Assembly (NCBI GenBank): GCA_034620365.1
Contig: JAQGEQ010000379.1
Coordinates: forward strand, 310,001 to 374,000
Reading direction: 5' to 3'
DNA from: Pegea sp. RAD2-039
Taxonomy: Eukaryota > Chordata > Thaliacea > Salpida > Salpidae
Length of the DNA: 64,000 nt
This document shows, piece after piece, positions 1 through 64,000 of the stretch (positions are counted from its first letter, which is position 1; every line of letters begins with the position of its first letter). The notes beneath the pieces are model-generated. The model worked only from the letters and a program-made list of their open reading frames with translations. It did no database searches and was not told the origin of the DNA. The translations under genes and the position numbers were made by a program.

Positions 1-1084
1 TTATTAAAATGAAACTAAAGTCTTGTGTTTGTGGGTAATCAGAAAGATTTTAGAGTTGTTTCAATTTATTCGGAAATTTTTCTATGAAGTTATGACTTTT
101 ATCAAATTTAAACAAAGAGATGTTTTCAAAAAATTTCAAGTTATTTGTTTTTATTTTACTTAAAATGTTGAGTAATTTACCAGATAGCAAAGTTTGAAAG
201 TCAACTTTCATTCCACATTATTAATTCCAAGCTACTAATATATATAATTTTAGCCAAGTTTCTTGATTATAATAACAAATTGTTTTATTTCGAAAAAAAT
301 TAAAAATCTTTTTACTTTTCCGGGTTTAAAAAGTTTTATTTTATCAAAAATTAGTAAGCACTCAACAAAAATCAAAACTAAAAATAAGATATTATTAAAA
401 TGTTGAAAAAAGGTATTTTTATACTAAAAATTCTTTTTTAACGTTAAAAATGAAAAATACTTACGTTATTAACAAATATTTGAAAATTTCCAAAAATCTT
501 TTTCAACTTTATTTAAAAATATATTTTTCAATTGTAACTGATCAGTCAAATTTGTTTTTTTAATATTTTAACATTGACTCCGACGTAAAATTATCGAACA
601 AAAAACATTTTAGATTGATAATTAGACAATTAGATAATTACCGGTATATAAATATATTACAATCTTAAATAAAAAGAAAACTTTTAAATTTTAGTTTTGA
701 AGACTTGAACTGTTACTTTAGAAAATGACGAAACAAAAAAATTTTATCAGCAAAAAAGATTTGATTGGTGACACAGAAGTTTTTAAACTGATATTTTATC
801 AATTGTCAAAATCCATTTTTAAATGCTGAGGGATACAATATAAGAGTACTTTGGTGTACTTTCAACTTAACATGCAACCGACTTAACTAATAATAATAAT
901 TATTTATTTTAATAATTAACAAATAATTTACTTGAATATTGAATTGATGATCATAACTAAAACTTATTTGTTATTATCAAAATATTTCTGTTTAAATTAA
1001 AAATATTCACGAAGACTTCAATATTAATTTATCGTTTTCAAGGATTTTTATTGTAAACATTCTTACTAATCTTATGTTAAAATT
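1..1084 (+). repeat. HOR satellite block: tail of M7, then M8
   Basis: The window opens inside an M7 module (G-rich box 2 at about 24-40, TTTGTGGGTAATCAG). The loop-free palindrome ACTGATCAGT follows near 538. The M8 hairpin at 786-804 reads AACTGAT-ATTTT-ATCAATT, with one mismatch in the stem. M8 is recognised by 'ctgagggatacaatataag' and by a stretch ending 'catgcaaccgacttaac'; it lacks box 2. No ORF of gene quality is present. Confidence 0.85.
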
Positions 1085-3602
1085 AACTGATATATAATCA
1101 GTTGTTCAAAATATCGGGAAGAAAACTGAAGTATGTTTAGCTTTCATTGTTTTCGCACTGTACTCGTTTAATAAAAAGTAATTATTATCTTATATTTGTG
1201 GGTAACTAAATTTTTTAGTCAGAGAAATTAACAGTCATTAAAAAGTTGTTTCAAAAAATAATGAATTTTCAAAAATATCGAGAAAGCGACGTCATAGAAC
1301 ATTCCAGGTTGTCAAGTAATTGTAAATTAGGATAAATTTTCAAAGGATAATAACTGTTGAGTCTTAATTATGATCAAATTATAGAAATAGATTTTAGCTT
1401 TCAGTCTACAAAAAAAGTTTGGTTTGTCATTATGATGTTTGCTAAACTAATATTTCATCAGTTGTCAAAATCACTTGATAACCCTACCAGATAAAATGAA
1501 ATCCAATATTCATTTGTTTAATCTGTTATTAAAATGAAAGTAAGGTATTGCGTTTGTAGGTAACAAAAACAATTCAGATTAGTTTCATTGTCTTTAGAAA
1601 TTGCTCTACAAAATATGATTCTTTTTAAAACTTTAAGCAAAAAGCTTCCTAAAAGATGTTAAGGTTTCAACTAAAATTAAGCAACAGTAAATGTTTACAA
1701 GTAAAAGATATTAAATCTTGATAAAGTAAAAAAATAGGTTACTTTAATCTAATGGGTTAATAAATATATTCAGTTTACTAGTTAGTAAAGTTTGAAAATC
1801 AACTTTTATTTCACAATTTTAATTCCAAGTTACTAAATTAGAAAAATGTTTGACAAGTTTCCTATTTTTCAAAAGCACAATTTTTCACATGATAAAATTA
1901 AAAGTTGTTCTGATACTTCATAAACTAAATTTTTTTATTTCAGTTAAAATTAGCAGAATGTTAAAAAAAAATGAAAACCATAAGATCAAATATTATTAGA
2001 ATCTTGAAAAAAATGTTTATATTTTAAGTTCATTTTTAACTTCAAAAATGAAAATTATTTATGTTATTAATAAATATTCGAAATTTTCAAAAATACTTTT
2101 CAACCTCAGTTAAAAATATATTTTTAAATTCTAACTGATCAGTCAAAAATATTGTTTAATAATTTTTATGTTGACTCCGAAGTAAACCTATGTAGCAAAA
2201 AATGTTAATTAATAATTATAAAATTAGTTATTTACCTGTATACAAATACATTACCATCCTAAATCAAAACAAAAACATGTAATTTTATTTTTGAAGACTT
2301 GGATTTTTACTTTAAAACATACGAAAGTAAATAACTTTATCAGCAAAACAAGTTTGATTTATGACAAGGAGTTTTTTAAGCTGATATTTCACCAGCTGCC
2401 AAAATATTTTGTAGAATTTGAAAGAAAGGAATATGATCCACATTCTTTTTAGTGTACTCTAAACTTAACATGTAACCAGTATCTAGCGTTTGTGGGTAAT
2501 TTAAACATGTTTGAAAATCATTTGACTTTTAATCTTATTTAACAAAACACTAAAGTTTAAATTCTGTAAAAACTATCCATTTTTCTGAATGACATCTATC
2601 TTATATTATCTCTTTATGAACTTTATTATAATTGTCCTTATTAGTATTATGATTTGTAGGACTGATATATAAACAGTTGCCAAATATTTTCCAGAAACAA
2701 ATATAGTATGCTGTTTCTACCAAGCTCCAGTCTACTCTTTTAATAACAAGTAACTAACATATGGAATTTGTTGATAAATTTGTTTAGACTAGTTTCACTG
2801 TCATTGAAAATTTGTCTAAAAATATATGACTTTTAAAAAAGCAAAACCACATGAAAAAAACTTTCAAAGTAATTGGCTTTTAAAATGAGATATAACAGGC
2901 GAAAGGCTGCTAGGTTTGACGACGCCAATAAATGCAGGTTATTTTCATTTAATGATTAACTATAAACAATAAAAGTATCAGTTGGCAAACTTAAAAGATA
3001 ATTTTCATTGAACAATTTTAATTTACTACATTTATGGCATCAATAATCAAGTATCAGTTGGCAAACTATCTTTGATAATTTGTTTCACAAAACGATGACA
3101 TTTAAAAAACTCTAAAGATAACGATTTAATAAAGCTTGAGTTGTCCAGTTTGCCAAGTAATTGTAAATTAGGGAATAATTTAGAAGGTGAAAGCGATTGA
3201 GTCTTATCTATATCAAATCACGTTGTTTTGAATAAAGAGTTTTTGTTAACAATTAATTTACCAGTTAGCAAACTTAAACGATATCTTTCACTAGAGGTTA
3301 TTCATTCCAAATTATTACATTTATAACATCTTAGTCAAGTTGTTTGTTTGTTGACCCACAAAATATTTTAGTTTGAAAAAAGTAGAAGTTAGATTTTTGT
3401 TACTTTTAGTTGAACTTTTTGTATTAAAATTAGAAAAAGTTCCTTTTAAAAGAAAAATCATAAAATTACATTTTTCATCTCATGTTTGAGATTAAAGATT
3501 ATATCTCAGTTGATGGAAAAAACTTTAAATTTTAATTTTACAACTAGTATTTAGCTTTCATTAAAAATTTGATTTAAAATCAAAATTCAGACAAAATTCA
3601 AG
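1085..3602 (+). repeat. HOR satellite block: M1(deleted)-M2-M4-M5b-M9-part M3
   Basis: Hairpins lie at 1085-1103 (M1), 1445-1463 (M2), 2379-2397 (M4) and 2660-2678 (M5b). M1 is cut short: after 'aattatgatcaaa' near 1380 it runs directly into the end of the module before M2, and the same breakpoint recurs near 27772. The string 'aagtatcagttggcaaac' occurs twice, about 75 bp apart (near 2974 and 3049), marking a junction into M9. The block ends in a partial M3 lead-in that is interrupted by the retroelement fragment. There are no genes. Confidence 0.8.
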
Positions 3603-4007
3603 GTTCAGGCAAAATTTACGAGATTGGTTTGCAGGAAACTTAATATCAAATACGAGAGTTATAAGCATCGTCTCAGCTTCTTCAATCTAGATACTTTGGA
3701 AATCCGAAGAATTAAATACGACCTTATTCTGATTTTTAAAATTATTCACAACCTAATTGATCTTCAGTTTGATGACTGTTTCTCCATTAGTCCCTCCCTC
3801 AAGTTATATCGACTTAGAAGACATAAACTACATCTTAATAAGCCCACTCCACCAGCTACATTAACCAGATTAAGTTTTTTCTCATACCGCACAATCAGTA
3901 CATGGAACAATCTGCCATCAGACATTGTCATGTCAAAATCACTTGTGCTGTTCAAGAAAAAGCTGAATTGTTATAATATCGCCAACATTGCCATTTTTAA
4001 ACTGTGA
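3603..4007 (+). pseudogene. C-terminal remnant of reverse transcriptase ORF
   Basis: This open stretch corresponds to the last about 135 residues of the 950-residue protein at 52633-55485, from the VCRKLNIKY segment to the stop. It ends in the same stop codon context. I count about 13 base differences over about 405 bp, roughly 97% identity by eye. Some change residues (for example G to E in KYGSY, and S to F in AISKL). There is no upstream ATG, endonuclease or RT catalytic core, so it cannot make a working enzyme. The frame is still open, which suggests a young copy and not selection. Confidence 0.88.
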
Positions 4008-4114
4008 ATTTTTCTCTTTTACAATACTATGATTCTGTGCAATTCTTCATTGTCATATGCTTTTTCGTTTACACGTCAAATAGATCTAATTTGTGAGAAT
4101 GTGTGTTAGCGAGA

Positions 4115-4133
4115 GGTGCTCTCTTTAGGCACC
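4115..4133 (+). other. 3' stem-loop of the retroelement fragment
   Basis: GGTGC (4115-4119) pairs with GCACC (4129-4133) around a 9-base loop, about 20 bp before the A/T tail. The same stem is present in the large copy, where the loop differs. By analogy with CR1/L2-type elements, a 3' stem-loop can be the site the reverse transcriptase recognises; that role is inferred here. Confidence 0.6.
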
Positions 4134-4150
4134 GTCCTTCACATTTATTG

Positions 4151-4170
4151 TAATAAACAAATAAATAAAT
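4151..4170 (+). repeat. AAAT-type 3' tail of the retroelement fragment
   Basis: A short tail of TAATAAACAAATAAATAAAT ends the fragment; one unit is changed to AAAC. The satellite resumes at once with 'attcaagaag'. Confidence 0.8.
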
Positions 4171-7100
4171 ATTCAAGAAGACCTCAATGTTAATTTATCT
4201 TTTTCAAGGATTTTTATTGTAAACATTCTTACTAATCTTATGCTAAAATTAACTGATATATAATCAGTTGTTCAAAATATCGGAAAGAAAACAGGGATGT
4301 GTCTAGAATCCTTTATATTCGCACTGTACTCGTTTAATATAAGGAATTTGTTATCTCGTATTTGTGGGCAACCAAATTTTTATCAGATAAAAATAACTGT
4401 CTTCAAAATCTGTTTCTAAAATGATAACTTTTGAAAAACTCTAAACAAAACGACGTCATAAATTATTTAAGGTGGTCTAGTAATTGTAATTAAGGGAACA
4501 TTTTACAGGATAAACGCTGTTGAGTCTTAATTATAATCAAAGTAGATTAGATTGATCTAAAGAGTTTTTATAAACAAGTACTAGTTGGAAAACTTAAATG
4601 ATAACTTTCATTGATTATTGTTAATTGAAAATTTCTGCATTCATAAAATATCAGCCAAATTTATTGTTTGTTGATTAAGATCTTATTTCGATAAAATTAC
4701 AAATTAACTTTTTGTGTCTTTCTATATTAACCTATTTTATATAATTTAGAAAAATCACTTTTTAAGAAAAATTATAAAAAAATATTTTTAATCTTTTTTT
4801 ATATTTAAAGTTTTATTATAAGTTGATTGGAAAATTTAAATGCTAATAAAATTTACAAAAATTATAAAAATGAGTATTTAGCTTTCAATAAAAATATCAT
4901 TTATATTAAACTTTACGAAACAAGTTTGATTTGTCATTATGAACTTTATTAAACTGATATTTCATCAGTTACAAAAATTACTAGTGATTTAAAGGAGCTT
5001 TTCCATGTTTTAATTCGAAGATTAATTTAGTATTAAAATGAAACTAAAGTCTTTCGTTTGTGGGTTATCAGAAAATATTTAGAGTAGTTTCACTGTTATC
5101 GGAATTTTTCCTAAAAAGTTTTGACTTTTAACAAATTTGAAAAAAAGATGTTTTCAAAAATTCAAGTTATTTATTTAAATTTTCTAAAAACTTTTATTAA
5201 TTTACCAGTTAGCAACGTTTGAAATTTAAATTTCATTGTACGTTATCAATTCCAAATTTCTATAATAATAAAATAATAATGCCAAGATTATTGTTTTTCA
5301 ATAATAAAATATTTTAGTTTAATAAAATTAAAAAATATTTTGATACTTCTCAAATTAAACTGTTTTTCTTCAGTTAAAATTAGTAAACGCTTAAAAAAAA
5401 TTAAACCAAAAGATAAAATAATATTATAACGTTGAAGAAGATTTGTTTATAATAAAAGTTCATTTTTAATTTCGAAAAAAAAATTATTTACGTTATTAAT
5501 AAATATTTAAATTTTTTCAAAAATACTTTTCAATTTCATTTAAAAATATCTTTATCAACTGTAACTGATCAGTCAAACTTAGTTTTAAGTCTTTTAAGAT
5601 TAACTCCGAAGTAAATTTATCAAACAAATAAAATTTTAGATGAATAATTAGAGAATTATATATTGACCTATATATAAATACATTACAATTTTAAATCAAA
5701 ACAAAAACTTTTAATTTTGTTTTTGAATACTTGGATTGTTACTTTAAAGCATACGAGAGTAAATAACTTTATCAGACAAACAAGTTTGATTTATGAAAAA
5801 GAGTTTTTTAAACTGGTATTTCACCAGCTGTCAAAATATTTTTTTGAAAAAGATGATAAGGAATATGATTCACATTCTTTTTAGTGTACTCTAAACTTAA
5901 GATGCCACCAGTATCTAGCGTTTGTGGGTAATTTAAACAATTTTGAGAAGAAAATAGACGCTTGGTATCTTATTAACCAAAAATTAAATGTTAAATTCTG
6001 AAGTAATTTTCAATTTTCTTGAATGATCTCTTTGTTAATTTATCCTTTTAGATTTTAATTAAAGTGATGTTGATTAATACTATGATATGTAAGACTAATA
6101 AATAACGGGTAGCACCAAATGGTTTCAAGAAAAAGATAGCATTATGTTGTTTCTACTATTTTTTGCAGTGTACTACATTAATATCAAGTAACTAACTCTT
6201 GAGTTTGTTGGTAAATTTGTTTAGACTAGTTTCACTATCATTGAAAAGTTGTCTCAAAAAATATGACTTTTAAATGAGCAAAACTACATAACAAAAACTT
6301 TAAGTAAGTAATTTTTTTACAATGAGATATAGCAGTCTAAAAGCTATTAGCTTTGACAACGCCAATAAATGCAGGTTAGTTTCATTTAATGATTAACTAT
6401 AAACAATTAAAGTATCAGTTGGCAAACTTAAAAGATAATTTTCATTAAACAATTTTAAATTCATGATAATTTTTATTGTAAACATTCTTACTAATCTTAT
6501 GTTAAAATTAACTGATATATAATCAGTTGTTCAAAATATCGGAAAGAAAACAGGGATGTGTCTAGAATCCTTTATATTCGCACTGTACTCGTTTAATATA
6601 AGGAATTTGTTATCTCGTAGTTGTGGGCAACCAAATTTTTATCAGATAAAAATAACTGTCTTCAAAATCTGTTTCTAAAATGATAACTTTTGAAAAACTC
6701 TAAACAAAACGACGTCATAAATTATTTAAGGTGGTCTAGTAATTGTAAATAAGGAAACATTTTACAAGATAAACGCTGTTGAGTCTTAATTATAATCAAA
6801 TTAGATAGTTTGATCTAAAGAGATTTTATAAACAAGTACTAGTTGGAAAACTTAAATGATAACTTTCATTGATTATTGTTAATTGAATATTTCTGCATCA
6901 TACATTTTAGCTTTCAGTCTACAAAAAAAGTTTGGTTTGTCATTATGATTTTTACTAAACTAATATTTCATCAGTTGTCAAAATTGATTGATAACCCTAC
7001 CAGATAAAATAAAATCCAACATTCATTTGTTTAATCTATTATTAAAATGAAAGTAAAGTCTTGCGTTTGTAGGTAACAAAAAATTCAGATTAGTTTCACT

Positions 7101-19200: not shown

Positions 19201-20508
19201 AAGTTGATAGAAAAATTTTAAATGCTAATAAAATTTACAAAAAATATAAAAATGAATATTTAGCTTTCAGTAAATATATTATTTATATTAAACTTTACGA
19301 AACAAGTTTGATTTGTCATTATGAACTTTATTAAACTGATATTTCATCAGTTACAAAAATATACAATGGTGTTAAATGAGCTTTCCCTGTTCACATTGAA
19401 GTTTAATCAATTATTAAAATGAAACTAAAGTCTTGTGTTTGTGGGTAATCAGAAAAATTTTAGAGTAGTTTCACTTTATTCGGAAATTTTTCTATGAAGT
19501 TATGACTTTTATCAAATTTAAACAAAGAGATGTTTTCAAAAAATTCCAAGTTATTTGTTTTTATTTTCTCTTAAAGGTTTGAGTAATTTACCAGATGCCA
19601 AAGTTTGAAATTAAAAGTCAAAAAAAGATTAAAAGTCAACTTTCATTTCACATTATTAATTCCAAGCTACTAATATATATAATTTTAGCCAAGTTTCTTG
19701 ATTATAATAACAAATTGTTTTATTTCGAAAAAAATTAAAAATCTTTTTACTTTTCCTGATTTAAAACGTTTTACTTTCGCTAAAGTTAGTAAGCGCATAA
19801 CAAAAATCAAAACCAAAAGATAAAATATTATTAAAATGTTGAATAAATGCATTTGTATAAGAAAAATTCTTTTTTAAATCAAACAGAAAATTATTTACGT
19901 TATCAACAAATATTTGAAAATTTTCAGAATTTTTTTCCAACTTCATTTAAAAATATCTTTTTCAATTGCAACTGATCAGTCAAATTTTTTTTAAATATTT
20001 TAACATTGACTCCGACGTAAAATTATCGAACAAAAAACATTTTAGATTAATAATTACACAGTTAGATATTTACTTGTATATAAATATAATACAGTCTTAA
20101 ATAAAAAACTTTTAATTTTTAATATTGAAGACTTAAACTGTTACTTTAAAAAGAAACTAAAAAATTTTATCAGCAAAACAAAATTTGATTCGTGACAAAG
20201 AAGTTTTTAAACTGATATTTCATCAATTGTCAAAATCCGTTTTTAAATACTGAGGGATACAATATAAGAGTACTTTGGTGTACTTTCAACTTAACATGCA
20301 ACCGACTTAACTGATAATTATAATTATTTATTCTAAATATTAACAAATAATTTACTTGAATTATTACTATTTGATCATAACTAAAACTTATTAGTTATAA
20401 TCAAAATATTTTTGTTTAAATTAACAATATTCAAGAAGACCTCAATACTAATTTATTTCTTTCAGGGATTTTTATTGTAAAAATTCATACTTATATTATT
20501 TTAAAATT
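16202..20508 (+). repeat. HOR block, 4307 bp: M1/M5 fusion-M3-M4-M5b-M6-M7-M8
   Basis: Hairpins: M1 16202-16220, M3 16900-16918, M4 17726-17744, M5b 18002-18020, M6 18631-18649, M7 19334-19352, M8 20210-20228. M1 is fused to M5 near 16380 ('atgatgataaaatgtttt'); an equivalent fusion lies near 60783. M7 holds a small internal duplication of 'aaaagtcaa' near 19615-19640. There is no gene. Confidence 0.85.
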
Positions 20509-51300: not shown

Positions 51301-52617
51301 AATTAAAATATAAGTTTTTGTGTCTTTCTATATTAACCTATTTTATATAATTTATAAAAATCACTTTTTAAGAAAAATTATAAAAAAATATTTTTTATCC
51401 TTTTTTTATTTTTTAAGTTTAATTATAAGTTGATAGGAAAATTTTAAATGCTAATAAAATTTACAAAAATTATAAAAATGTGTATTCAGCTTTCAGTAAC
51501 AAAATCATTTATATTAAACTTTACGAAACAAGTTTGATTTGTCATTATGAACTTCATTAAACTGATATTTCATCAGTTACAAAAATATACACTGGTGTTA
51601 AATAAGATTTCCCTGTTCACATTGAAGATTAATCTATTATTAAAATGAAACTAAAGTCTTGTGTTTGTGGGTAATCAGAAAAATTTTAGAGTAGTTTCAC
51701 TTTATTCGGAAATTTTTCTATGAAGTTATGACTTTTATCAAATTTAAACAAAGAGATGTTTTCAAAAAATTTCAAGTTATTTGTTTTTATTTTACTTAAA
51801 ATGTTGAGTAATTTACCAGATAGCAAAGTTTGAAAGTCAACTTTCATTCCACATTATTAATTCCAAGCTACTAATATATATAATTTTAGCCAAGTTTCTT
51901 GTTTATAATAACAAATTGTTATATTTCAAAAAAAAATTAAACAATCTTTTGACTTTTCCTGATTTAAAAAGTTTTATTTTAGCTAAAATTAGTAAGCGCT
52001 TAACATAAATCAAAACCAAAAGATAAAATATTATTAAAATGTTGAAAAAAGGTATTTTTATAAACAAAATTCTTTTTTAAATTCAAAAAGAAAAATATTT
52101 ACGTTATTAACAAATATTTGAAAATTTCCAAAAATCTTTTTCAACTTCATTTAAAAATATCTTTTTCAATTGTAACTGATCAGTCAAATTTGTTTTTTAA
52201 TATTTTAACATTGACTCCGACGTAAAATTATAGAACAAAAAACATTTTAGATTGATAATTAGACAGTTAGATATTTACTTGTATTTAAATTTATTACAAT
52301 CTTAAATAAAAACAAAACTTTTTAATTTTAGTATTAAAGACTTGAACTGTTACTTTAGAAAATGACGAAACTAAAAAATTTTATCAGCAAAAAAGATTTG
52401 ATTCGTGACAAAGAAGTTTTTAAACTGATATTTTATCAGTTGTCAAAATCTGTTTTTAAATACTGAGGGATACAATATAAGAGTACTTTGGTGTACTTTC
52501 AACTTAACATGCAACCGACTTAACTAATAATAATTATTCTAAAAATTGATATATAAAATACTTGAATAATTACTTGATGATCAGAAATAAAATTTACTTG
52601 TTATAATCAAAATATTT
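48373..52617 (+). repeat. HOR block left of the retrotransposon: M1(deleted)-M2-M4-M5-M6-M7-M8
   Basis: Hairpins: M1 48373-48391, M2 49010-49028, M4 49943-49961, M6 50858-50876, M7 51560-51578, M8 52433-52451. M1 lacks about 70 bp near 48562. M6 shows a paired change in its hairpin (AACTGAT...AACCAGTT, one mismatch). The last 100 bp match 13050-13153 almost exactly up to the insertion point. There is no gene. Confidence 0.85.
52610..52617 (+). repeat. Probable target-site duplication, left copy
   Basis: AAATATTT lies just before the retrotransposon and recurs at 55649-55656 just after its tail. The same eight bases occur once in the empty paralogous site (about 13146-13153). Because the motif is A/T only and the tail ends in AAAT, the true duplication length is uncertain. 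Confidence 0.55.
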
Positions 52618-52632
52618 TCTTTTATATTAGGT

Positions 52633-55485
52633 ATGCTTTTCAACGCACGGTCAATTGTCAACAAAATTTTCGAATTGAAAGCTCTTTTGCTTTCTCAAGA
52701 TTTTACATTTGTTTTCATTACCGAAACTTGGTTGAAACCCTTTTATCCTGACTCCTTTCTGGATGACAGTGATCTTTTTCGTGCTTTGCGCTGTGATAGA
52801 CTGTTTGATAGAGGCGGCGGTGTTTGTGTAATCTATAAAACATCACTGGCACCCATGATTTCAAGAATTAAGATAGATACCATTGATTGCCCAGGATTTG
52901 AGATTATTGCTTTCAATTTTCATTACTCAAAGTCTAAGTTTTCCCGCTTTATATGTACCTACCTACCACCGTCTAAAGTTAACGATGAGGTTACTATTAA
53001 GGCCTTATTGAAGGTTCTGAAAAGCCTTGTTTGTCCTGAGATGTATATTCTCGGGGATTTTAATTTTAGTAGAATTGATTGGAATAACCCAAATTTAGCA
53101 TTCAATGGAAAAATGTTTAATTTGAATGGAGACAAAACTAATTTAGCCAATCTGAGTCATGTCTTTGTAAACTTCCTTGATGCCAATAATCTATCTCAGA
53201 TGGTTACTTTTCCAACCCAAGTTAGTGGTAATACTTTGGATCTTCTCATCACGTCAAAACCTGATAACGTTATCTACGTTGATCAAAATGAACCTTTTGC
53301 TCTGACATGCGATCACAACATGATTGAATTCAAGCTCCAACAAACTTTTTCTACGAACGTTAAAACTCCAAGCATACGGAACTTTTATCGTGGAAATTAT
53401 AACAGTATAAACAAGTTTTTATCAGGTGTTGACTGGATTTCTGTTTTCAACTCTACCGAAGACATCAATGATATCTACTCAAGGTTTACTAACATTGTTA
53501 ATGAGTCAATTAAAAAGTTCATACCTTTATATAGAGTCAACAAAAAACCACACTTGCCAAGATATTTAAGGAATTTACAGCATTTGAAAAACCTCTTATA
53601 CAAACAAACTAAAGCAGATCCTTCCATCAAACCTCTATACAAAGATCTTTGTCTAGTCTACAAGAAATCAGTTTATAGCCTCTATTTAGGAAAAGAAAGT
53701 GCAATCTTATCTTCACCTAGCAAGAAAACGTTTTTTGGCTTCATTAATCACAAGCTTAAGGCGAGATCTCATCTACCTCCCTTGCTTGATAACGCCAATC
53801 AGCTGGTGATGGAACCAAAGAATAAAGCTGAATTGCTAAACAAACAATTTGAAAAGGTTTTTATAACCGATGATGGCAATACTCCTACTATTTCCTACTC
53901 CAATATCCTTTCAAATATCTCTGAGATGGTAGATCTAGACATAACAGTTGATATAGTATCTAAGGCTATTTCTTCTCTAAAATCAACAGTTTCCAACACC
54001 CCAGATCAAATCCCAGCTTTGTTTTTAAGAAAAAGTACTTCTTCTTTAGCGCTACCCTTATCGCTACTCTTTAACATGACTCTTAAGCGGGGAAGACTTC
54101 CACAAATTTGGAAGAATGCTATTATTACTCCAATTTATAAGAAAGGTCCCAGAAACACTGCACTTAACTACAGACCAGTTTCGCTGACTTCGGTTATCTG
54201 CAGAACTCAAGAACATATCATTCACAACCATATAACTAGCCATTTGACGGAGCATCATCTAATATCCGATGCCCAGCATGGCTTTGTTAAGCAAAGATCT
54301 TCTTTGACTCAACATCTCACTTTTTTCAATGAGCTTACAGCTCATTACGAAAGTAATACTCCATGTGACATCATATACCTTGATTTTGCTAAAGCGTTTG
54401 ATTCTGTTCCACACAACAAGCTCATTACTGTATTGAAAAACATAAAAATCAGCAACTCTATCTTAAAATGGATTGAAGATTTCTTATCAGGTAGAACCCA
54501 ACGAACCCGTGTAGAAAGATCTTTATCTACTCCTAGTAAAGTCACCAGCGGCGTTCCTCAAGGTTCCGTCCTGGGTCCACTTCTCTTTTTGATTTTCATT
54601 GAAGACCTCATCAGAAGACTAATAACAGTAGACAATGTCAGTGTGTTTGTGTATGCAGATGACATCAAGCTATTATCTGGTTCTCACTCAAAACTCCAAA
54701 CTGCACTAAACATTGTAGAAAACTGGTCTGCGAATTGGCAACTTAAAATCCAGCCAACAAAGTCTGAAGTTATAACATTCTCCCGTAAGCCAGCGGCCAA
54801 CTTCAGCAACCAATACTACATCAATGGATCCATTCTTGAACGAGTATCCTCAGTCATAGACCTCGGCATTACTCTGACATCTGACTTCAAATGGCACAGT
54901 TATGTTTCCAGAATCTTTGGAAAATCTATCAAGCTTGTCCACCTCATCATAAAGACTTTTAATTCTAAAGATCCATGGTTTTTCGTCAACCTTTTCAAAC
55001 TGTACATACGCCCTATTCTTGAATACAATATCAGTGCATGGATGCCATATCAAGTTGGTGATATCAGAAAAATCGAATCTGTTCAGGCAACATTTACGAG
55101 ATTGGTTTGCAGGAAACTTAATATCAAATACGGGAGTTATAACCATCGTCTCAGCTTCTTCAATCTAGATTCTTTGGAAATCCGAAGAATCAAATACGAC
55201 CTTATTCTGATTTTTAAAATTATTCACAACCTAATTGATCTTCAGTTTGATGACTTTTTCTCCATTAGTCCCTCCCTCAAGTTATATCAACTTAGAAGAC
55301 ATAAATTACATCTTAATAAGCCCACTCCACCAGCTACGTTAACCAGATTAAGTTTTTTCTCATACCGCATAATCAGTACATGGAACAATCTGCCATCAGA
55401 GATTGTCATGTCAAAATCACTTATGCTGTTCAAGAAAAAGCTGAATTGTTATAATATCGCCAACATTGCCATTTCTAAACTGTGA
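52633..55485 (+). CDS. Endonuclease/reverse transcriptase polyprotein of a non-LTR retrotransposon
   Basis: The 950-residue protein would nick target DNA and copy element RNA at the nick. Residues 1 to about 230 form an apurinic-type endonuclease: NARS at 4-7, TET with the metal-binding Glu near 31, RGGGVC near 60, GDFN at 141-144, and DH at 227-228 in CDHN, where Ser is commoner than this Cys. A linker with FFGFINHKL lies near 360-370. The reverse transcriptase spans about 430-720: YRPVSL near 513, LDFAKAFD at 583-590, GVPQGSVLGP from 640, and the catalytic YADD at 674-677. The C-terminal 230 residues are the usual thumb/tail (YIRPILEYN, SFFSYRIISTWNNLP) without zinc fingers or RNase H. No frameshift or internal stop is seen. 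The ATG at 52633 falls at the family's endonuclease start and may be an internal Met of a longer ORF. Catalytic motifs are intact, but expression is doubtful because the 5' end is missing. The assignment to CR1/L2-like is from motif style, not a search. Confidence 0.93.
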   Translation: MLFNARSIVNKIFELKALLLSQDFTFVFITETWLKPFYPDSFLDDSDLFRALRCDRLFDRGGGVCVIYKTSLAPMISRIKIDTIDCPGFEIIAFNFHYSKSKFSRFICTYLPPSKVNDEVTIKALLKVLKSLVCPEMYILGDFNFSRIDWNNPNLAFNGKMFNLNGDKTNLANLSHVFVNFLDANNLSQMVTFPTQVSGNTLDLLITSKPDNVIYVDQNEPFALTCDHNMIEFKLQQTFSTNVKTPSIRNFYRGNYNSINKFLSGVDWISVFNSTEDINDIYSRFTNIVNESIKKFIPLYRVNKKPHLPRYLRNLQHLKNLLYKQTKADPSIKPLYKDLCLVYKKSVYSLYLGKESAILSSPSKKTFFGFINHKLKARSHLPPLLDNANQLVMEPKNKAELLNKQFEKVFITDDGNTPTISYSNILSNISEMVDLDITVDIVSKAISSLKSTVSNTPDQIPALFLRKSTSSLALPLSLLFNMTLKRGRLPQIWKNAIITPIYKKGPRNTALNYRPVSLTSVICRTQEHIIHNHITSHLTEHHLISDAQHGFVKQRSSLTQHLTFFNELTAHYESNTPCDIIYLDFAKAFDSVPHNKLITVLKNIKISNSILKWIEDFLSGRTQRTRVERSLSTPSKVTSGVPQGSVLGPLLFLIFIEDLIRRLITVDNVSVFVYADDIKLLSGSHSKLQTALNIVENWSANWQLKIQPTKSEVITFSRKPAANFSNQYYINGSILERVSSVIDLGITLTSDFKWHSYVSRIFGKSIKLVHLIIKTFNSKDPWFFVNLFKLYIRPILEYNISAWMPYQVGDIRKIESVQATFTRLVCRKLNIKYGSYNHRLSFFNLDSLEIRRIKYDLILIFKIIHNLIDLQFDDFFSISPSLKLYQLRRHKLHLNKPTPPATLTRLSFFSYRIISTWNNLPSEIVMSKSLMLFKKKLNCYNIANIAISKL

Positions 55486-55628
55486 ATTTTTCTCTTTTAC
55501 AATACTATGATTCTGTGCAGTTCTTCATTGTCATATGCTTTTTCGTTTACACGTCAAATAGATCTAATTTGTGAGAATGTGTGTTAGCGAGAGGTGCTCT
55601 TTTTAGGCACCCTCCTTCACATTTATTG
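55486..55628 (+). other. 3' untranslated region of the retrotransposon
   Basis: About 140 bp between the stop codon and the tail, nearly identical to 4008-4150 in the fragment (for example 'gatctaatttgtgagaatg'). Shared conservation of this non-coding part in both copies confirms that it belongs to the element and not to the satellite. Confidence 0.85.
55593..55611 (+). other. 3' stem-loop of the retrotransposon
   Basis: GGTGC (55593-55597) pairs with GCACC (55607-55611). The loop is TCTTTTTAG here and TCTCTTTAG in the fragment, so the stem is kept while the loop drifts. It probably marks the RNA end recognised by the reverse transcriptase (inference from CR1/L2 elements). Confidence 0.6.
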
Positions 55629-55648
55629 TAATAAATAAATAAATAAAT
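55629..55648 (+). repeat. (AAAT)n 3' tail of the retrotransposon
   Basis: Four to five AAAT units follow 'ttgtaat', with no poly(A). A short simple-repeat tail instead of poly(A) is typical of CR1/L2-type elements. Confidence 0.85.
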
Positions 55649-55656
55649 AAATATTT
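55649..55656 (+). repeat. Probable target-site duplication, right copy
   Basis: AAATATTT follows the tail and is continued by 'ctgtttaaattaac', exactly as in the unoccupied site at 13146-13170. Its first A's may belong to the tail. Confidence 0.55.
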
Positions 55657-55753
55657 CTGTTTAAATTAACAATATTCAAGAAGACCTCAATGTTAATTTA
55701 TCTTTTTCAAGGATTTTTGTTGTAAACTTTTTTACTAATCTTATGTTAAAATT
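55657..55753 (+). repeat. Resumed M1 lead-in right of the retrotransposon
   Basis: The satellite continues in register: 'ctgtttaaattaacaatat' and 'tcaagaagacctcaatg' lead to the M1 hairpin at 55754. Subtracting the insertion (about 3039 bp with one duplication), the M8 to M1 hairpin spacing is about 282 bp, close to the 298 bp seen at 60307-60605. Confidence 0.85.
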
Positions 55754-57028
55754 AACTGATATATAATCAGTTGTCCAAAATATCGGGAAGAAAACCGAAG
55801 TGTGTTTAGCTTTCACAATATTCGCACTGTACTCGTTTAATAAAAAGTAATTTTTATCTTGTGTTTGTGGGTAACTAATTTTTATGTCAGAGAAATTAAC
55901 AGTCATTAAAAAGTTGTTTCAAAAAATGATGACTTTTCAAAAATATAAAGAAAGCGACGTCATAGAACATTCCAGGTTGTCAAGTAATTGTAAATTAGGA
56001 TAAATTTTTACAGGATAATAGCTGTTGAGTCTTAATTATGATCAAATCACGTTATTTTGATACACAGAGTTTTTATAAACAAGTACTAGTTGGAAAACTT
56101 AGATGATAACTTTCATTGATTATTATTAATTCAAAATTTCTGCATTCATAAAATATCAGCCAAATTTGTTGTTTGTTGACTAACTAAATATTTTTTTTTG
56201 ATAAGAAATAAAAGTTAAAAATTTGTTGATTTAAAAATAAACTTATTACAATCAAATAGGAAAAGTTTCTATTTAAATAAAAAATCATAAAACTAGATTT
56301 TCGATCGTTTGTTTAAGGATTAAGTTTGTTTTTAGTTTCATGAAATTTCATAAAAAATTTAGGAAATGTTGGAAAAATTATAGAAATAGATTTTAGTTTT
56401 CAGTCTACAAAAAAGTTTGGTTTGTCATTATGATGTTTGCTAGACTAATATTTCATCAGTTGTCAAAATTGCTCGATAACCCTACCAGATAATATGAAAT
56501 CCAACATTCATTTGTTTATTCTGTTATTAAAATGAAAGTAAAGTCTTACGTTTTTAGGTAACAAAAATAATTCAGATTAGTTTCACTGTCTTTAGAAATC
56601 GTTCTACAAAATATGATTCTTTTTAAAACTTTAAGCAAAAAGCCTCCTTAATAAATGATAAGGTTTGAACTAAAATTAAGCAATAGTAAATGTTTGCAAG
56701 TAAATGCTGTTAAATCATGATAAAGTTACAAAATAGGTTACTTTAATCTAATAAATATATTCAATTTACTAGAATTTGCTAGTTTTATTAATTTGCTAGT
56801 TCTATTGTATTAAAATTAGAAAAGGCTCGTTCAAAAGAAAAGTCATAAAAAAATTGTTATCTCTTGTTAAGGTTAAAGATTTTTTCTAAGTTTGTGAAAA
56901 ATTTTAAATTCTAATAAACTTCAGAAAATTTACAAAAATTGTTTTTAGCTTTTAGCAAAAATATCGTTTATAATCGTTTATAATAAAGTTTACGAAACAA
57001 GTTTGGTTCGTCATTATGACTTTCGTTA

Positions 57029-57047
57029 AACTGATGTTTCATCAGTT
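57029..57047 (+). other. M3 box-1 hairpin (representative)
   Basis: AACTGATG-TTT-CATCAGTT, an 8-bp perfect stem with a 3-base loop. It is followed by TTCAAATTTGTACTAGGGAG. The same form is at 10091, 16900, 21700, 24295, 34221, 40548, 42606, 45186 and 63759, so it is the best-preserved hairpin class in the window. Confidence 0.75.
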
Positions 57048-57862
57048 TTCAAATTTGTACTAGGGAGCTAAAGGAGCTTTACCCGTTTTTAGTCGACGTT
57101 TAATCCAGTATTAAAATGAAACTAAAGTCTTCCGTTTGTGGGTAGTCGGAAAAATTTTTAGAGTAGTTTCACTGCCATCGGAAATTATTCTAAAAAGTTT
57201 TGACTTTAATGAAATTTAAACAAAGAAATGTTTTCAAAAAATTCAAGTCATTTATTTAAGTTTTCTAAAAACTTTTATTAATTTACCAGTTAGCAAACTT
57301 TGAAATAAAAGCTGCTAAAATAATAAAAATATGATGCCAAGATTATTGTTTTTCAATAACAAAATATTTTAGTTTAATAAAATAAAAAATATTTTGATAC
57401 TTCTCAAATTAAACTGTTTTTCTTCAGTTAAATTTAGTAAGCGCTTAAAAAAATTAAACCAAAAGATAGAATAATATTATAACGTTGAAGAAGATTTGTT
57501 TATAATAAAAGTTCATTTTTAATTTCGAAAAGAAAATTATTTAGGTTATTAATAAATATTTAAAATAATCAAAAATACTTTTAAACTTCATTTAAAAATA
57601 TATTTTCCAACTGTAACTGATCAATCAAACATAGTTTTAAGTCTTTTAAGAGTAACTCCTAAGTAAATTTATCAAACAAATAAAATTTTAGATGAATAAT
57701 TAGAGAATTATATATTGACCTATATATAAATACATTACAATTTTAAATCAAAACAAAAACTTTTAATTTTGTTTTTGAAGACTTGGATTGTTACTTTAAA
57801 ACATACGAGAGTAAATAACTTTATCAGCCAAACAAGTTTGATTTATAACAAAGAGTTTTTTA

Positions 57863-57881
57863 AACTGGTATTTCACCAGCT
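57863..57881 (+). other. M4 box-1 hairpin (representative)
   Basis: AACTGGT-ATTTC-ACCAGCT, preceded by 'caagtttgatttataac'. Other M4 copies are AGCTGGT-ATTTC-ACCAGCT (28630, 33014; perfect 7-bp stem) or AGCTGAT-ATTTC-ACCAGCT (2379, 17726; one mismatch). M6, M7 and M3 have AACTGAT and ATCAGTT at the same place. Confidence 0.75.
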
Positions 57882-60604
57882 GTCAAAATATTTTGTAAAT
57901 TTATAAAGAAGGATTATGATCCACATTCCTTTTAGTGTACTCTAAACTTAACATGTAACCAGTATCTAGCGTTTGTGGGTAATTTAAACATTTTTGAGAA
58001 GAAAATAGACGCTTTTAATCTTAGTTAACCAAAAATTAAATGTTAAATTCTGTATAAATTTTCAATTTTCTTGAATGATCTCTTTGTTAATTTATCCTTT
58101 TAAGTTTTAATTAAAGTGATGTTGATTAATACTATGATATGTAAGACTAATAAGTAACGGGTAGCATCAAATACTTTCAAGAAAAAGATAGCATTATGTT
58201 GTTTCTACTATTTTTTGCAGTGTACTAGTTTAATATCAAGTAACTAACTCTTGATTTTGTTGGTAAATTTGTTTAGACTAGTTTCACTATCATTGAAAAG
58301 TTGTCTCAATAAATACGACTTTTAAATGAGCAAACCCAAATGACAAAAACCTTTAAAGTAATATTCTTTTACAATGACATATAGCAGGCTAAAAGCTGTT
58401 AAGTTATGACGACGCCAATAAATGCAGGTTAGTTTCATTTAATGATTAACTATAAACAATTAAAGTATCAGTTGGCAAACTTATATGGTAAAATAATACA
58501 TTTAAAAATATTATAGTCTTTGTAAGTATATTCAGTTTATTTTGTAGCTAAAATAATATTTATTAATTATTTCATCTAAAAATCAACAAATAAAACACAT
58601 GAATTATTACTCTACAAGCATAACTAAAATTTATTTGTTATTATCAAAATATTTCTGTTTAAATTAACAATATTCAAGAAGACCTCAATATTACTTTATC
58701 TTTTTCAAGAATTATTATTTTAAACATTCTTACTAATCTTATGTTAAAATTAACTGATATGTAATCAGTTGTCCAAAATATCGGAAAGAAAACAGGGATG
58801 TGTCTAGAATTCATTATATTTGCACTGTACTCGTTTAATATAAGGAATTTGTTATCTCGTATTTGTGGGTAACCAAATTTTTATCAGATAAAAATAACTG
58901 TCTTCAAAATCTGTTTCTAAAATGTTAACTTTTGAAAAGTTCTAAACAAAACGACGTCATAAATTATTTAAGGTGATCTAGTAATTGTAAATAAGGGAAC
59001 ATTTTGCAGGATAAACGCTGTTGAGTCTTAATTATAATTAAAGTAGATTAGATTGATCTAAAGAGTTTTTATAAACAAGTACTAGTTGGAAAACTTAAAT
59101 GATAACTTTCATTGATTATTGTTAATTCAAAATTTCTGCATTCATAAAATATCAGCCAAATTTTTTGTTTGTTGATTAACATCTTATTTTGATAAAATTA
59201 CAAATTAACTTCTTGTGTCTTTCTATATTAACCTATTTTATATAATTTATAAAAATCACTTTTTAAGAAAAGTTATAAAATAATATTTTTCAAAATATTT
59301 TTTTATATTTAAAGTTTTATTATAAGTTGATAGAGAAATTTTAAATGCTAATAAAATTCACAAAAATTATAAAAATGAGTCTTTAGCTTTCAGTAAAAAT
59401 ATCAGTTATAATAAACTTTTCGAAACAAGTTTGATTTGTCATTATGAACTTTATTAAACTGATATTTCATCAGTTACAAAAATTACTAGGGAGTTAAAGG
59501 AGCTTTTCCACGTTCCAATTCGATGATTAATCTATTATTAAAATGAAAGTAAAGTCTTGTGTTTGTGGGTAATCAGAAAAATTTTAGAGTAGTTTCATTT
59601 TATTCGGAAATTTTTCTATGAAGTTTTGACTTTTATCAAATTTAAACGGAAAGATGTTTTCAAAAAAATTCGAGTCAGTCGTTTTTATTTTTCTTAAAAG
59701 TTTGAGTAATTTACCAGATGTCAAAGTTTGAAAGTCAACTTTCATTTCACATTATTAATTCCAAGTTACTAATATGTATAATTTTAGTCAAGTTTCTTGA
59801 TTATAATAACAAATTGTTTTATTTCGAAAGAAATTAAAAATTTTCCTGGTTTAACACGTTTTACTTTAGCTAAATTTAGTAAGCGCTCAACAAAAATCAA
59901 AAGCATAAAGATAAAATATTATTATAATGTTGAATAAAGGTATTTTTATACTAAAAATTCTTTTTTAAATTCAAAAAGAAAAATATTTACGTTATTAACA
60001 AATATTTGAAAATTTCCAAAAATCTTTTTCAACTTCATTTAAAAATATCTTTTTCAATTGTAACTGATCAGTCAAATTTGTTTTTTAAATATTTCAACAT
60101 TGACTGCGACGTAAAATTATCGAACAAAAAACATTTTAGATTGATAATTAGACAATTAGATAATTACTTGTATATAAATATAATACAGTCTTAAATAAAA
60201 ACAAAACTTTTTAATTTTGTTTTTGAAGACTTGAACTGTTACTTTAAAGAGAAACTAAACAATTTTATCAGCAAAAAAAATTTGATTCGTGACAAAGAAA
60301 TTTTTAAACTAATATTTCATCAGTTGTCAAAATCCGTTTTTAAATACTGAGGGATACAATATAAGAGTACTTTGGTGTACTTTCAACTTAACATGCAACC
60401 GACTTAACTGATAATAATAATTATTTATTCTAATATATAACAAATAAATTACTTGAATTATTACTATTTGATCATAACTAAGACTTAACTGTTATAAACA
60501 TAATATTTCTGTTTAAATTAACAATATTCAAAAAGACCTCAATATTTATTTTTCTCTTTCAAGTATTTTTATTGTAAACTTTCTTACTAATCTTATATTA
60601 AATT

Positions 60605-63600
60605 AACTGATATATAATCAGTTTCCAAAATATCGGGAAGAAAACTGAAGTATGTTTAGCTTTCATTATTTTCGCACTGTACTCGTTTAATAAAGAGTAA
60701 TTTTTATCTTGCGTTTGTGGGTAACTAATTTTTTTGTCAGAGAAATTAACAGTCATTAAAAAGTTGTTTCAAAAAATGATGATAAAATGTTTTAAAAAAA
60801 CTTTTAAAGTAATTTGCTTTTACAATAAGATATAGCAGGCTAAAAGCTGTTAGATTATGACGACGCCAATAATTGCAGGTTAGTTTCAGTTAATGATTAA
60901 TTATAAACAATAAAAGTATCAGTTGGCAAACTCAGAATCTAATTTTCATTGAACAATTTTAATTTACTACATTTATAACATCTTAGTCAAGTTGGTTGTT
61001 TGTTGACCCACAAGATATTTTAGTTTGAAAAACGTAGAAGTTAGATTTTTGTTGCTTTTAGTTGAACTTATTGTATTAAAATTAGAAAAGGTTCTTTTTA
61101 AAAGAAAAATCATAAAATTACATTTTCCATCTCTTGTTTAAGATTAAAGATTATATCTAAGTTGATGGAAAAATTTCTCATTCTAACAAGTCTTAGAAAG
61201 TTTATCAAGAATATTTTTTAGCTTTTAGCAAAAAATTCGTTTAAAATAAAGTTTACGAAACAAGTTTGATTTGTCATTATGACTTTTGTTAAACTGATGT
61301 CTCATCAGTTTTCAAATTAAAATTAGGGAACTAATGGAGCTTTATCCTTAGATAATCGAAGTTTAATCTAGTATTAAAATGAAACTAAAGTCTTGAGTTT
61401 GTGGGTAGTCCGAAAATTTTTTAGAGTAGTTTCATTTTTTTTGGAAGTTTTCCTAAAAAGTTTTGACTTTAATGAAATTTAAACAAAGAGATGTTTTCAA
61501 AAAATTCAAGTCATTTATCTAAATTTTCTAAAAACTTTAATTAATTTACCAGTTAGCAACGTCTGAAATTTAAATTTCAATGTATGTTATCAATTTCAAA
61601 TTTCTAAAATAATAAAAATATAATGCAAAGATTATTATTTTAATAAAATTAAAAAATATTTTGGCACTTCTCAAATTAAACTGTTTTTCTTTAATTAAAA
61701 TTAGTAGGCGCTTAAAAAAATTAAACCAAAAGATAGAATAATATTATAACGTTGAAGAAGATTTATTTATAATAAAAGTTCATTTTTAATTTGGAAAAGA
61801 AAATTATTTACGTTATTAATAAATATTTAAAATATTCAAAAATACTTTTAAACTTCATTTAAAAATATCTTTTTCAACTGTAACTGATCAATCAAACTTA
61901 TTTTAAGTCGTTTAAGATTAACTCCGAAGTAAATTTATCAAACAAATAAAATTTTAGATGAATAATTAGAGAATTATATATTGGCCTATATATAAATACA
62001 TTACAATTTTAAATCAAAACAAAAACTTTTAATTTTGTTTTTGAAGACTTGGATTGTTACTTTAAAACATACGAAAGTAAATAACTTTATCAGCCAAACA
62101 AATTTGATTCATGACAAAGAGTTTTTTAAACTGGTATTTCACCAGCTGCCAAAATATTTTCTAAATTCATAAGGAAGGATTATGATCCATATTCCTTTTA
62201 GTGTACTCTAAACTTAACATGTCACCAATATCTAGCGTTTGTGGGTAATTTAAACATTTTTGAGAAGAAAATAGACGCTTTTAATCTTAGTTAACCTAAA
62301 ATTAAATGTTAAAATCTGTATAAATTTTCAATTTTCTTGAATGATCTCTTTGTTAATTTATCCTTTTAAATTTCAATTAAAGCGATGTTGATTAATACTA
62401 CAATATGTAAGACTAATAAGTAACGGATAGCGCCAAATAGTTTCATGAAAATGATAGCATTATGTTGTTTCTACTATTTTTTGCAGTCTACTAGTTTAAT
62501 ATCAAGTAACTAACTCTTGAGTTTGTTGGTAAATTTGTTTAAACTAGTTTTACTATCAATGAAAAGTTGTCTCAAAAAATACTACTTTTAAATGAGCAAA
62601 CCTAAATGACAAAAACTTTTAAAGTAATATTCTTTTACAATGAGATATAACAGGCTAAAAGCTGTTAGGTTATGACGATGCTAATAAATTCAGGTTAGTT
62701 TCATTTAATGATCAACTTTAAACAATTAAAGTATCAGTTGGTAAACTTAAAAGATAACTTTCATTGAACAATTTTAAATTCAAAATAATACATTTAGAAA
62801 TATTATAGTATTTGTAAGTATTTGCAGTTTATTTTATAGGTAAAATAATATTTATTAATTATTTCATCTAAACATTAACAAATAAAACACATGAATCATT
62901 ATCCTACAAGCATAACTAAAACTTATTTGTTATAATCATAATATTTCTGTTTAACTTAAAAATATTCAAGAAGACCCCAATATTAATTTATCATTTTCAA
63001 GGATTTTTATTGTAAACATTCTTACTAATCTTATGTCAAAATTAACTGAAATATAATCAGATTCCAAAATACTTGAAAAATACAGAGATGTGTCTGGCAT
63101 TCATTGTATTCGCACTGTACTCGTTTAATATAAGGTGATTAATATCTTGCGTTTGTTGGTAAACAATGTTATTGTCAAACTAAATTAACTGTCATTGAAA
63201 ATTTATTTCACAAAATGATGACTTTTAAAAAACTCTAAAGATAACGATTTAATAAATCTTGAGTTGTCCAGTTTGCCAAGTAATTGTAAACTAGGATATA
63301 ATGTAGAAGGTGAAATCGATTGAGTCTTATCTATATCAAATCACGTTGTTTTAATCTAAAGAGTTTTTGTTAACAATTAATTTACCAGTTAGCAAACTTA
63401 AACGATAACTTTCACTAGAGGTTATTCATTCCAAATTACTACATTTATAACATCTTAGTCAAGTTGTTTGTTTGTTGACCCAGAAGATATTTTAGTTTGA
63501 AAAAAGTAGAAGTTAGATTTTTGTTACTTTTAGTTGAACTTATTGTATTAAAATTAAAAGGTTCTTTTTAAAAGAAAAATCATAAAATTACATTTTTCAT

Positions 63601-64000
63601 CTCTTGTTTAACATTAAAAATTATATCTAAGTTGATGGAAAATTTCTCAGTCTAATAAGTTTTAGAAAACTGTAAAAACAAGTATTTTGCTTTCAACAAA
63701 AATATCGTTATAATAAAGTTTACAAAACAAGTTTGATTTGTCATTATGACTTTTGTTAAACTGATGTTTCATCAGTTTTCAAATTTGCACTAGGGAGCTA
63801 AAGGAGCTTTACCCGTTTATAATCGAAGTTTAATCTAGTATTAAAATGAAACTAAAGTCTTGTGTTTGTGGGTAATCAGAAATTTTTATAGACTAATTTC
63901 AATATCATCGAAAATTTTTCTATGAAGTTTTGACTTTAATGAAATTTAAAGAAAGAGATGTTTTCAAAAAATTCAAGTCATTTATTTAAATTTTCTAACA
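60605..64000 (+). repeat. HOR block: M1/M5 fusion-M3-M4-M5-M9-M3 (runs off the window)
   Basis: Hairpins: M1 60605-60623, M3 61292-61310, M4 62129-62147, M9 63044-63062, M3 63759-63777. The M1/M5 fusion near 60783 matches the one near 16380. This is the only place where M9 is present with its full first half (hairpin plus box 2 form GCGTTTGTTGGTAAAC near 63152); at about 3070, 33620 and 42005 only its later part survives. There is no gene. Confidence 0.83.

Follow-up and report, generated by a model that had tools for sequence, protein, structure and literature searches.

A one-directional array of diverged repeat modules in the salp Pegea, possibly built of tandemly amplified and partly decayed Sm-class small-RNA genes

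The 64,000-nucleotide stretch analysed here, hereafter the window, covers positions 310,001 to 374,000 of contig JAQGEQ010000379.1 (C22, 522 kb) in the assembly of Pegea sp. RAD2-039 (GCA_034620365.1; 105.7 Mb in 387 contigs), and belongs to a larger array of diverged repeat modules. On the evidence of the DNA sequence, we think it rather probable that this array consists of tandemly amplified, partly decayed genes for small RNAs of the Sm class, most like those of spliced-leader (SL) RNAs. The modules have a common layout on the minus strand, the stem of their hairpin differs between arrays through two-sided changes, and conserved columns are less variable within module classes than the remaining ones. 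Because a 5' box, a donor-like GU, an Sm-like site and a 3' stem-loop together make up the layout of an SL RNA gene, such a gene appears the likeliest identity of the module. In the mechanism that we propose, a single small-RNA gene would have been tandemly amplified into the array, with unequal exchange carrying modules along in units of several kilobases; functional copies would each be transcribed into an RNA, which Sm proteins would bind and whose 5' part would be donated to messenger RNAs (mRNAs) through trans-splicing. Since most classes of the C22 array lack the donor-like GU, decaying copies and diverged variants are probably mixed in it.

Read on the minus strand, the module layout spans about 120 nt and comprises a 5' box (CCCACAAAcGC), a middle part, an Sm-like site of the form A-U(3-6)-G-R, and a 3' stem-loop directly after it. 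Genes of the small nuclear RNA (snRNA) type have such a layout, in which an RNA of about 120 nt carries an Sm site and, after it, a 3' stem-loop. The original prediction had recognised the conserved hairpin and missed the Sm-like site that precedes it on the minus strand. The elements are exemplified at the following window positions, with modules assigned to the classes c00 to c07 described below.

55754..55874, minus strand: example of an RNA-like stretch of class c02, 121 nt, running from the CCCACAAA box through the 3' hairpin
55863..55874, minus strand: 5' box, GTTTGTGGGTAA on the plus strand and TTACCCACAAAC on the minus strand
55822..55832, minus strand: donor-like GUACA|GUGCGA of c02 and c05
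55773..55784, minus strand: Sm-site-like GAUAUUUUGGAC, directly 5' of the hairpin
55754..55772, minus strand: 3' hairpin AACUGAU-UAUAU-AUCAGUU (the 'box-1 hairpin' of the original prediction), with a stem kept across arrays through two-sided changes
56443..56461, minus strand: c04 hairpin position with adjoining Sm-like AAUUUUGA; the hairpin is absent from the minimum-energy fold of this copy
57029..57047, minus strand: c00 hairpin with adjoining Sm-like AAAUUUGAA
57863..57881, minus strand: c03 hairpin with adjoining Sm-like AUAUUUUGA
58752..58770, minus strand: c05 hairpin with adjoining Sm-like AUAUUUUGG, donor-like GU kept

The hairpin could be placed in 179 of 188 recognised modules, the other nine being without the 5' part. 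An A-U(3-6)-G-R motif lies directly 5' of the minus-strand hairpin in 149 of these 179 modules and in none of them on the plus strand, whereas 102 control offsets gave a mean of 6.5 and a maximum of 39 matches among the 179. All classes contribute (c00, 22/37; c01, 24/33; c02, 21/22; c03, 29/30; c04, 26/27; c05, 14/14; c06, 11/14; c07, 2/2). When the sequence was scanned for Sm-like sites that adjoin a perfect hairpin, 58 hits came from the minus strand of the array, every one at a module hairpin, and none from its plus strand; the flanks yielded 0, 0, 1 and 1 (2 in 146 kb, both strands) and Markov-simulated sequences 0, 0, 0, 3 and 2. With G-U pairs tolerated, the array gave 95 hits on its minus and 0 on its plus strand, and the flanks (145 kb) 1 and 3. 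The 5' box is best kept in c00, c02, c03 and c05, altered in c01, c04 and c07, and not reached in c06; in the former four classes the distance from the CCCACAAA box to the Sm-like site is 87-92 nt (n = 71). Some copies carry a donor-like GU 40-50 nt before the Sm-like site, namely all 14 of c05 and at least 13 of 22 in c02.

We then compared hairpin stems in 23 rows (21 distinct) that we picked ourselves, that is, 18 C22 hairpins spanning the variants, without decayed c01 copies, and five relatives from other contigs; shuffle tests on these rows are inflated by the relatedness of the rows. Read as minus-strand RNA, the chosen rows contain two-sided changes at four of the seven pairs, a number reached in 16 of 500 shuffles, and in 14 cells (0/500). 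Their covariation score was 0.393 versus 0.198 (0/500 shuffles) and did not exceed 0.131 when slid. Pairing amounted to 96.6% as minus RNA and 91.2% as plus, with nine versus one G-U pairs; a separate plus-strand count on 21 rows gave 90.7%, with a covariation of 0.225. For all C22 hairpins except those of c01, standard pairs occupied 97.8% of stem cells in the minus and 91.8% in the plus reading, and the paired fraction of the distinct C22 hairpins lay above shuffles on both strands (reached by 5 of 2,000 on the minus and 7 on the plus). The background mutation spectrum was free of strand bias (82/495 vs 76/467, p 0.93). The strand preference thus described is seen in the hand-picked rows; within C22 by itself, the count of events does not make it significant.

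Conservation within the module is likewise uneven. Columns conserved over the five deep classes cluster along its length, as the observed window variance was reached in 0 and the highest window in 35 of 5,000 shuffles, and conservation is strongest at the hairpin and at GTTTGTGGGTAA. Within classes, from the most to the least conserved columns, variation affected 26% of 418, 45% of 505 and 58% of 838 cells. Because exchange between classes could mimic such low variation, we counted only alleles absent from the consensus of every other class. These private alleles were scarcer at conserved than at other columns among both transitions (40/379 vs 110/554) and transversions (67/794 vs 162/1,260), with a Mantel-Haenszel odds ratio of 0.54. 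A low mutation rate at the conserved columns, in place of selection, may underlie the difference. These data bear on a reading that we consider quite improbable, whereby the array is a neutral old tandem repeat, for instance of transposable-element origin, and its boxes are remnants of common ancestry devoid of present function. Identity of about one half between classes, the decayed c01 hairpins, the lack of a donor-like GU in most classes and the similarity of about 90% between long copies at any distance would all fit a neutral repeat, but neither the lower within-class variability of conserved columns, private alleles included, nor a stem that differs between arrays through two-sided changes is expected from it.

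We further looked for related repeats across the assembly, a search that the original prediction had proposed for the whole family. Three array probes (640-660 bp) had all their listed matches within the C22 array locus, with 49 (40 of 53 candidates scored), 37 (37 of 37) and 40 (40 of 50) matches as lower bounds, and the hairpin pattern with up to three mismatches occurred 115 times forward and never in reverse in the whole genome, always in this array. The exact degenerate hairpin pattern had 0 and 0 matches in collections of viral contigs and genome contigs. The close matches listed lie in C22, and diverged relatives reside on other contigs. For the box pattern AGTCTTGCGTTTGTGGGTAA, allowing up to three mismatches, there were 115 matches in the forward and 8 in the reverse direction (2 and 1 for the reversed-pattern control), of which five, among the matches listed for the first 100 places, fall on the minus strand of contig C72. 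We read relatives as five short pieces, L051 to L055, two from C72 and one each from C182, C195 and C282. A model of the first part of the module (R1, 128 positions) scored 19.0 bits both on L051, a 500-base C72 piece, and on L052, also from C72; its next best match beyond known modules in 264.5 kb reached 13.2 bits. Used as a DNA query, L051 retrieved 61 pieces on five contigs (C72, C94, C282, C182 and C195), and on C72 the relatives span 42.6-457.7 kb of the 467-kb contig. As a further observation, relatives are spread over most of C72 and parts of the four other contigs, in both orientations on C195, and recognised C72 copies stand several to tens of kilobases apart.

The relatives repeat the layout of the C22 modules. 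The CCCACAAA box is present in the C72, C282, C182 and C195 pieces, an Sm-like site lies 80-86 nt further on in all five, and the stem follows at the same place, unbulged in the C72 pieces and bulged by a single base in those from C182, C195 and C282. The stems themselves differ: AACTGAT/ATCAGTT in C22, CACCGCC/GACGGTT in C72, AACCGTC/GA-G-CGGTT in C182 and C195, and AACCGTC/GA-T-CGGTT in C282. By eye, a GU stands at the donor place in all five pieces, which represent three lineages (ACA|GUAAGG in C72, ACC|GUGAAG in C282, AUU|GUAAAA in C182 and C195), and the Sm-like AATTTTTG[GA] follows 42-48 nt after this GU in C72, C282, C182 and C195, again as counted by eye. A donor-side stem measures 10 bp in one C72 piece (C72b) and 5 bp in the other (C72a). 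Among minimum-energy folds of ten single stretches, seven form the 3' hairpin (C72a, C72b, C282, c02, c00, c03 and c05).

The array as a whole occupies C22:259,448-374,804 (115,357 bp) and thus exceeds the window. With context taken from C22:200,001-464,000, both borders pass into little-repeated sequence, apart from pieces of long interspersed nuclear elements (LINEs) and a separate repeat at 202-218 kb, and the flanks on both sides are mostly non-repeat and contain open frames. An nhmmer profile seeded with five modules and then iterated matched 188 modules in C22:258,001-377,000, of which 102 start inside the window. All 188 lie on the plus strand, and 14-mers in the window are shared by 127,892 direct versus 217.5 inverted pairs (308 direct in one Markov control), which bears out the uniform orientation that had been claimed. 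Also upheld is the description of one directional tandem family nearly filling the window, here interrupted by a LINE and a truncated LINE piece, and of a large, irregular higher-order array of diverged classes with a recurring hairpin instead of a simple satellite. The recognisable module measures about 315 bp, and modules cover 51,083 of the 115,357 bp (44%). Clustering resolved groups of 37, 33, 30, 30, 27, 14, 14, 2 and 1 members; the diverged classes of the original prediction are thereby confirmed, in the number of seven main and two minor clusters and not at least ten. The consensus sequences of the main classes agree to 43-62%, the exceptions being the sister pairs c02/c05 (77%) and c03/c06 (68%), and the small class c07 is 72% like c02 and 68% like c05. 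The classes come roughly in the order 6-2-4-0-3-1-(5 or 2), and many runs are rearranged; one unit reads as follows:

55754..60604, plus strand: higher-order unit of 4,851 bp (c02 to c02) with eight recognisable modules, c02, c04, c00, c03, c01, c05, c00 and c06

This block had been put forward as 16 intervals averaging 303 bp; the 4,851-bp repeat unit stands, and the count of intervals does not, given the eight recognisable modules. Spacings of 690, 585, 834, 304, 585, 705, 850 and 298 bp are close to multiples of 300, and self-matching peaks weakly at a lag of about 291 bp (z 4.5 after smoothing), so that a periodicity near 300 bp survives in this form. The linkers, in turn, are not clearly module: against the module profile one of 134 had E<1 and nine matched at E<=10 (reversed controls, 0 and 2), and a few match R1 weakly (best 13.2 bits, E 0.025), and it is possible that they contain very degenerate modules. 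Of the proposed higher-order repeats of 3.9-4.9 kb, both the 4,851-bp unit and a peak at 4,264 bp were recovered; however, the higher-order structure is without a single period, since 4,264 bp is one among many peaks and the strongest self-match lags are 11,609 and 14,203 bp. Long copies are about 90% identical irrespective of distance (90.7% below 6 kb and 90.2% above 48 kb, in 272 alignments 1,500 bp long or longer). A simple tandem satellite of about 300 bp was rejected as a candidate, as Tandem Repeats Finder reported no such array, modules make up 44% and the linkers are not recognisably module.

The idea of a centromere-like, subtelomeric or otherwise recombination-prone region did not find support. 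The array lies 259 kb and 147 kb from the ends of its contig, between frame-bearing flanks. Diverged relatives exist on other contigs, and for this reason the repeats may still have a role in chromosome structure. Higher-order repeats of the alpha-satellite type consist of diverged monomers in higher-order units with a CENP-B box. The present array resembles them in its diverged monomers, higher-order units and conserved box (for CENP-B, an excerpt of PMC9673304), and differs in that its classes are far more diverged, recognisable module accounts for 44%, and the layout is that of an RNA gene on one strand. We regard it as unlikely that the array is a centromere-type satellite with the palindromic box as a protein-binding site. 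Related, contig-specific repeats on several contigs, a box conserved amid divergence and palindromic half-sites 5 bases apart in those C22 class consensus sequences that keep them would suit such a satellite, and conserved boxes in satellites have precedent in the same excerpt (PMC9673304). A binding palindrome, however, predicts neither an Sm-like motif adjoining on one strand in 149 of 179 modules nor, in the chosen rows, wobble pairs on one strand, and the C22 array sits between flanks that bear open frames.

The one orientation of local repeats near multiples of 300 bp within one locus, few open reading frames besides those of LINEs and the conserved short elements would also be compatible with a macrosatellite or local-repeat locus that yields one very long nuclear noncoding RNA with multivalent binding repeats, comparable to hsr-omega, Firre or DXZ4. 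Precedents are the Firre local repeats (PMC4820808) and the DXZ4 array (PMC3218863), which illustrate other functions of local repeats; the repeats of hsr-omega measure 280 bp (PMC9865238). Yet related repeats on five other contigs speak against a single locus, the layout corresponds to a discrete gene some 120 nt long and not to a continuous repeat, and the linkers are not recognisably module. We hold this explanation to be improbable.

Returning to amplified SL-type RNA genes, an excerpt of PMC7986045 gives as marks of SL RNA genes a GU donor, an Sm site (AT4-6G) 20-60 nt downstream and flanking inverted repeats or stem-loops. A number of our results weigh against this identity. The donor-like pattern is replaced by CU or CC, or has no match, in c00, c01, c03, c04, c06 and c07, and the classes have strongly differing 5' parts, as would not be the case with a single SL exon. 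Known SL exons end in WWG (PMC3795323), whereas the putative exon of C72, AAUACA|GUAAGG, ends in ACA. Searches of Rfam detected no family at gathering score in the window, and at E values up to 5 no credible match for window positions 55,700-58,300 or for L051 to L055. SL RNAs of new lineages are not expected in Rfam. The c01 hairpin is decayed in 24 of 33 copies, with 65-69% standard inner pairs (64.5 and 66.2% over all seven pairs), and the 3' hairpin was unformed in the minimum-energy folds of C182, C195 and c04. Folding of one whole higher-order unit revealed no excess of structure on either strand.

To the same side of the balance belong statistical limits. The strong stem figures depend on the 23 hand-picked rows: in the distinct C22 hairpins alone, two-sided changes (2 pairs) were not above shuffles (611 of 2,000 on the minus strand), and mismatch events in C22, counted per class and pair on the plus strand, numbered nine A.C versus three G.T (p 0.15), or seven versus one at inner pairs (p 0.07), neither being significant. 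The longest run of conserved columns was ordinary (813 of 5,000 shuffles), and the correlation over 10-column bins was weak (rho -0.31, p 0.09). Our first connection to other arrays came from a 20-base pattern whose reversed control also had three matches; R1 scored no more than 6.9 bits on the C182 piece; the full-module profile separates relatives poorly, with 9.9 and 6.1 bits for C72 when the top-scoring of 364 flank chunks had 5.6, and left C182 outside its top 12; and the unbulged Sm-plus-hairpin scan recovers two of the five pieces, both from C72.

Further candidates were tried and set aside. Known spliceosomal snRNAs (U1, U2, U4, U5, U6, U7, U11, U12) had no Rfam model match, and the bdelloid SL exon, with up to three mismatches, was not found anywhere in the genome. 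For monogonont rotifers, an EST survey detected no SL (PMC1925144), which would count against the SL reading only if the array came from such an animal. Eight contigs contain pieces of Wnt genes, in keeping with an animal genome; searches for COX1, and for arthropod cuticle and nematode collagen families, whose controls were likewise empty, returned nothing. A coding function of the array was rejected, as open frames of at least 100 amino acids outside the LINE are nearly absent, the exception being a minus-strand frame of 100 amino acids at C22:324,053-324,352, besides a 104-residue antisense frame within the LINE. A telomeric origin, considered on account of the TGTGGG within the box, was discarded since three copies of TGTGGG (gaps 0-3), the only telomere motif searched, do not occur in the assembly. 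A strongly structured long RNA was likewise rejected for lack of a fold excess, and a splice-site reading of the plus strand, with an exon-like piece before GGTAA, was dropped, the acceptor not being common to the classes.

Within the published record, the closest case is MelSat01 of the nematode genus Meloidogyne, a satellite that, according to the excerpted text of PMC9673304, corresponds to the Mi-SL1b spliced-leader sequence and is moderately transcribed. As described there, MelSat01 shares with the present array a satellite repeat that contains a small-RNA gene, several genomic locations, and divergence of the repeat outside a 5' element and the Sm site, where conservation is concentrated (PMC9673304). 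The difference is that a known SL and its transcription are at hand in that case, whereas here diverged classes in higher-order units are read from sequence, no known exon is present and most classes lack a donor.

SL gene clusters of Ciona and Schistosoma encode one SL each, whereas in the present array the 5' part and the donor vary by class and most copies are without a donor. In the excerpt of PMC7986045, Ciona SL genes form 264-bp units, and 110 genes were found in Schistosoma, with up to 200 reported; likenesses are the many copies in units and, as candidate elements in part of the copies here, the GU donor, the Sm site 20-60 nt downstream and the flanking stem-loops. The same excerpt reports several SL types in Hydra, with SL RNAs of 80 and 107 bp and the Sm site AAUUUUGA, as in c04, and does not describe satellite-like arrays for them (PMC7986045). 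The satellites rotiSat1 and rotiSat2 of Brachionus asplanchnoidis (monomers of 154 and 143 bp, about 37% GC, in an excerpt of PMC8447722) are similar in forming long arrays in a small animal genome, and differ from the C22 array, mostly of 22-26% GC, in composition and unit.

The remaining features of the window are its LINE interruptions.

1..64000, no strand assigned: array segment with two LINE interruptions; the window is all array except the LINE and the truncated LINE piece at ~3,580-4,170
~52,630-55,648, plus strand: inserted LINE-type retrotransposon (endonuclease and reverse transcriptase), outside the repeat family; its frame of 964 amino acids is noted at 52,591-55,485

The older truncated LINE copy at ~3,580-4,170 has a near-identical second copy, surroundings included, at C22:291,862-292,430. 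The LINE was not confirmed to have a perfect 20-bp target-site duplication, the two 20-base copies agreeing in the first 8 bases and then differing. At its left edge (C22:259,439-259,448) the array adjoins the 3' end of another LINE copy (C22:256,459-259,439), and immediately beyond its right edge we noted an additional degenerate hairpin (TTTTAAATTGATATTTTATCAGTTGTTAAATA-like; C22:374,921-374,950, L020:921-950). Farther out, C22:202,000-218,000 (L009, L010) contains the separate tandem repeat of about 5.8 kb, in which transfer RNA (tRNA)-Lys genes and LINE pieces recur at that spacing, and the right flank (C22:399,700-439,100; L022, L023, L025, L026) eleven scattered tRNA-Val genes identified by ARAGORN, with anticodons TAC and AAC. 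Similar uninterrupted frames (CENHGLVLSPINT...-type) recur at C22:236,900-255,300 and 418,000-440,300; they resemble C-type lectins by eye only, and none of those scanned passes the Pfam cut-off. A 1,005-codon uninterrupted frame at C22:425,603-428,617 (L025) encodes a myosin head.

Higher-order satellites are usually taken as structural DNA. We tentatively entertain, as a bolder claim from these sequence comparisons, that the modules encode Sm-class small RNAs of a family so far not described, or polymorphic spliced leaders of an animal lineage in which trans-splicing is not known, that many strongly diverged variants of these occupy 100-400 kb on several contigs, and that compensatory change has preserved the 3' stem. 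If true, satellite evolution would here be tied to gene amplification, with the Sm-like site and the hairpin surviving in copies at half identity. An Sm-like site beside a hairpin on one strand would then provide a criterion applicable to bare sequence for SL-type genes that RNA-family searches miss, and the array yields exact sequences for tests of trans-splicing in this animal.

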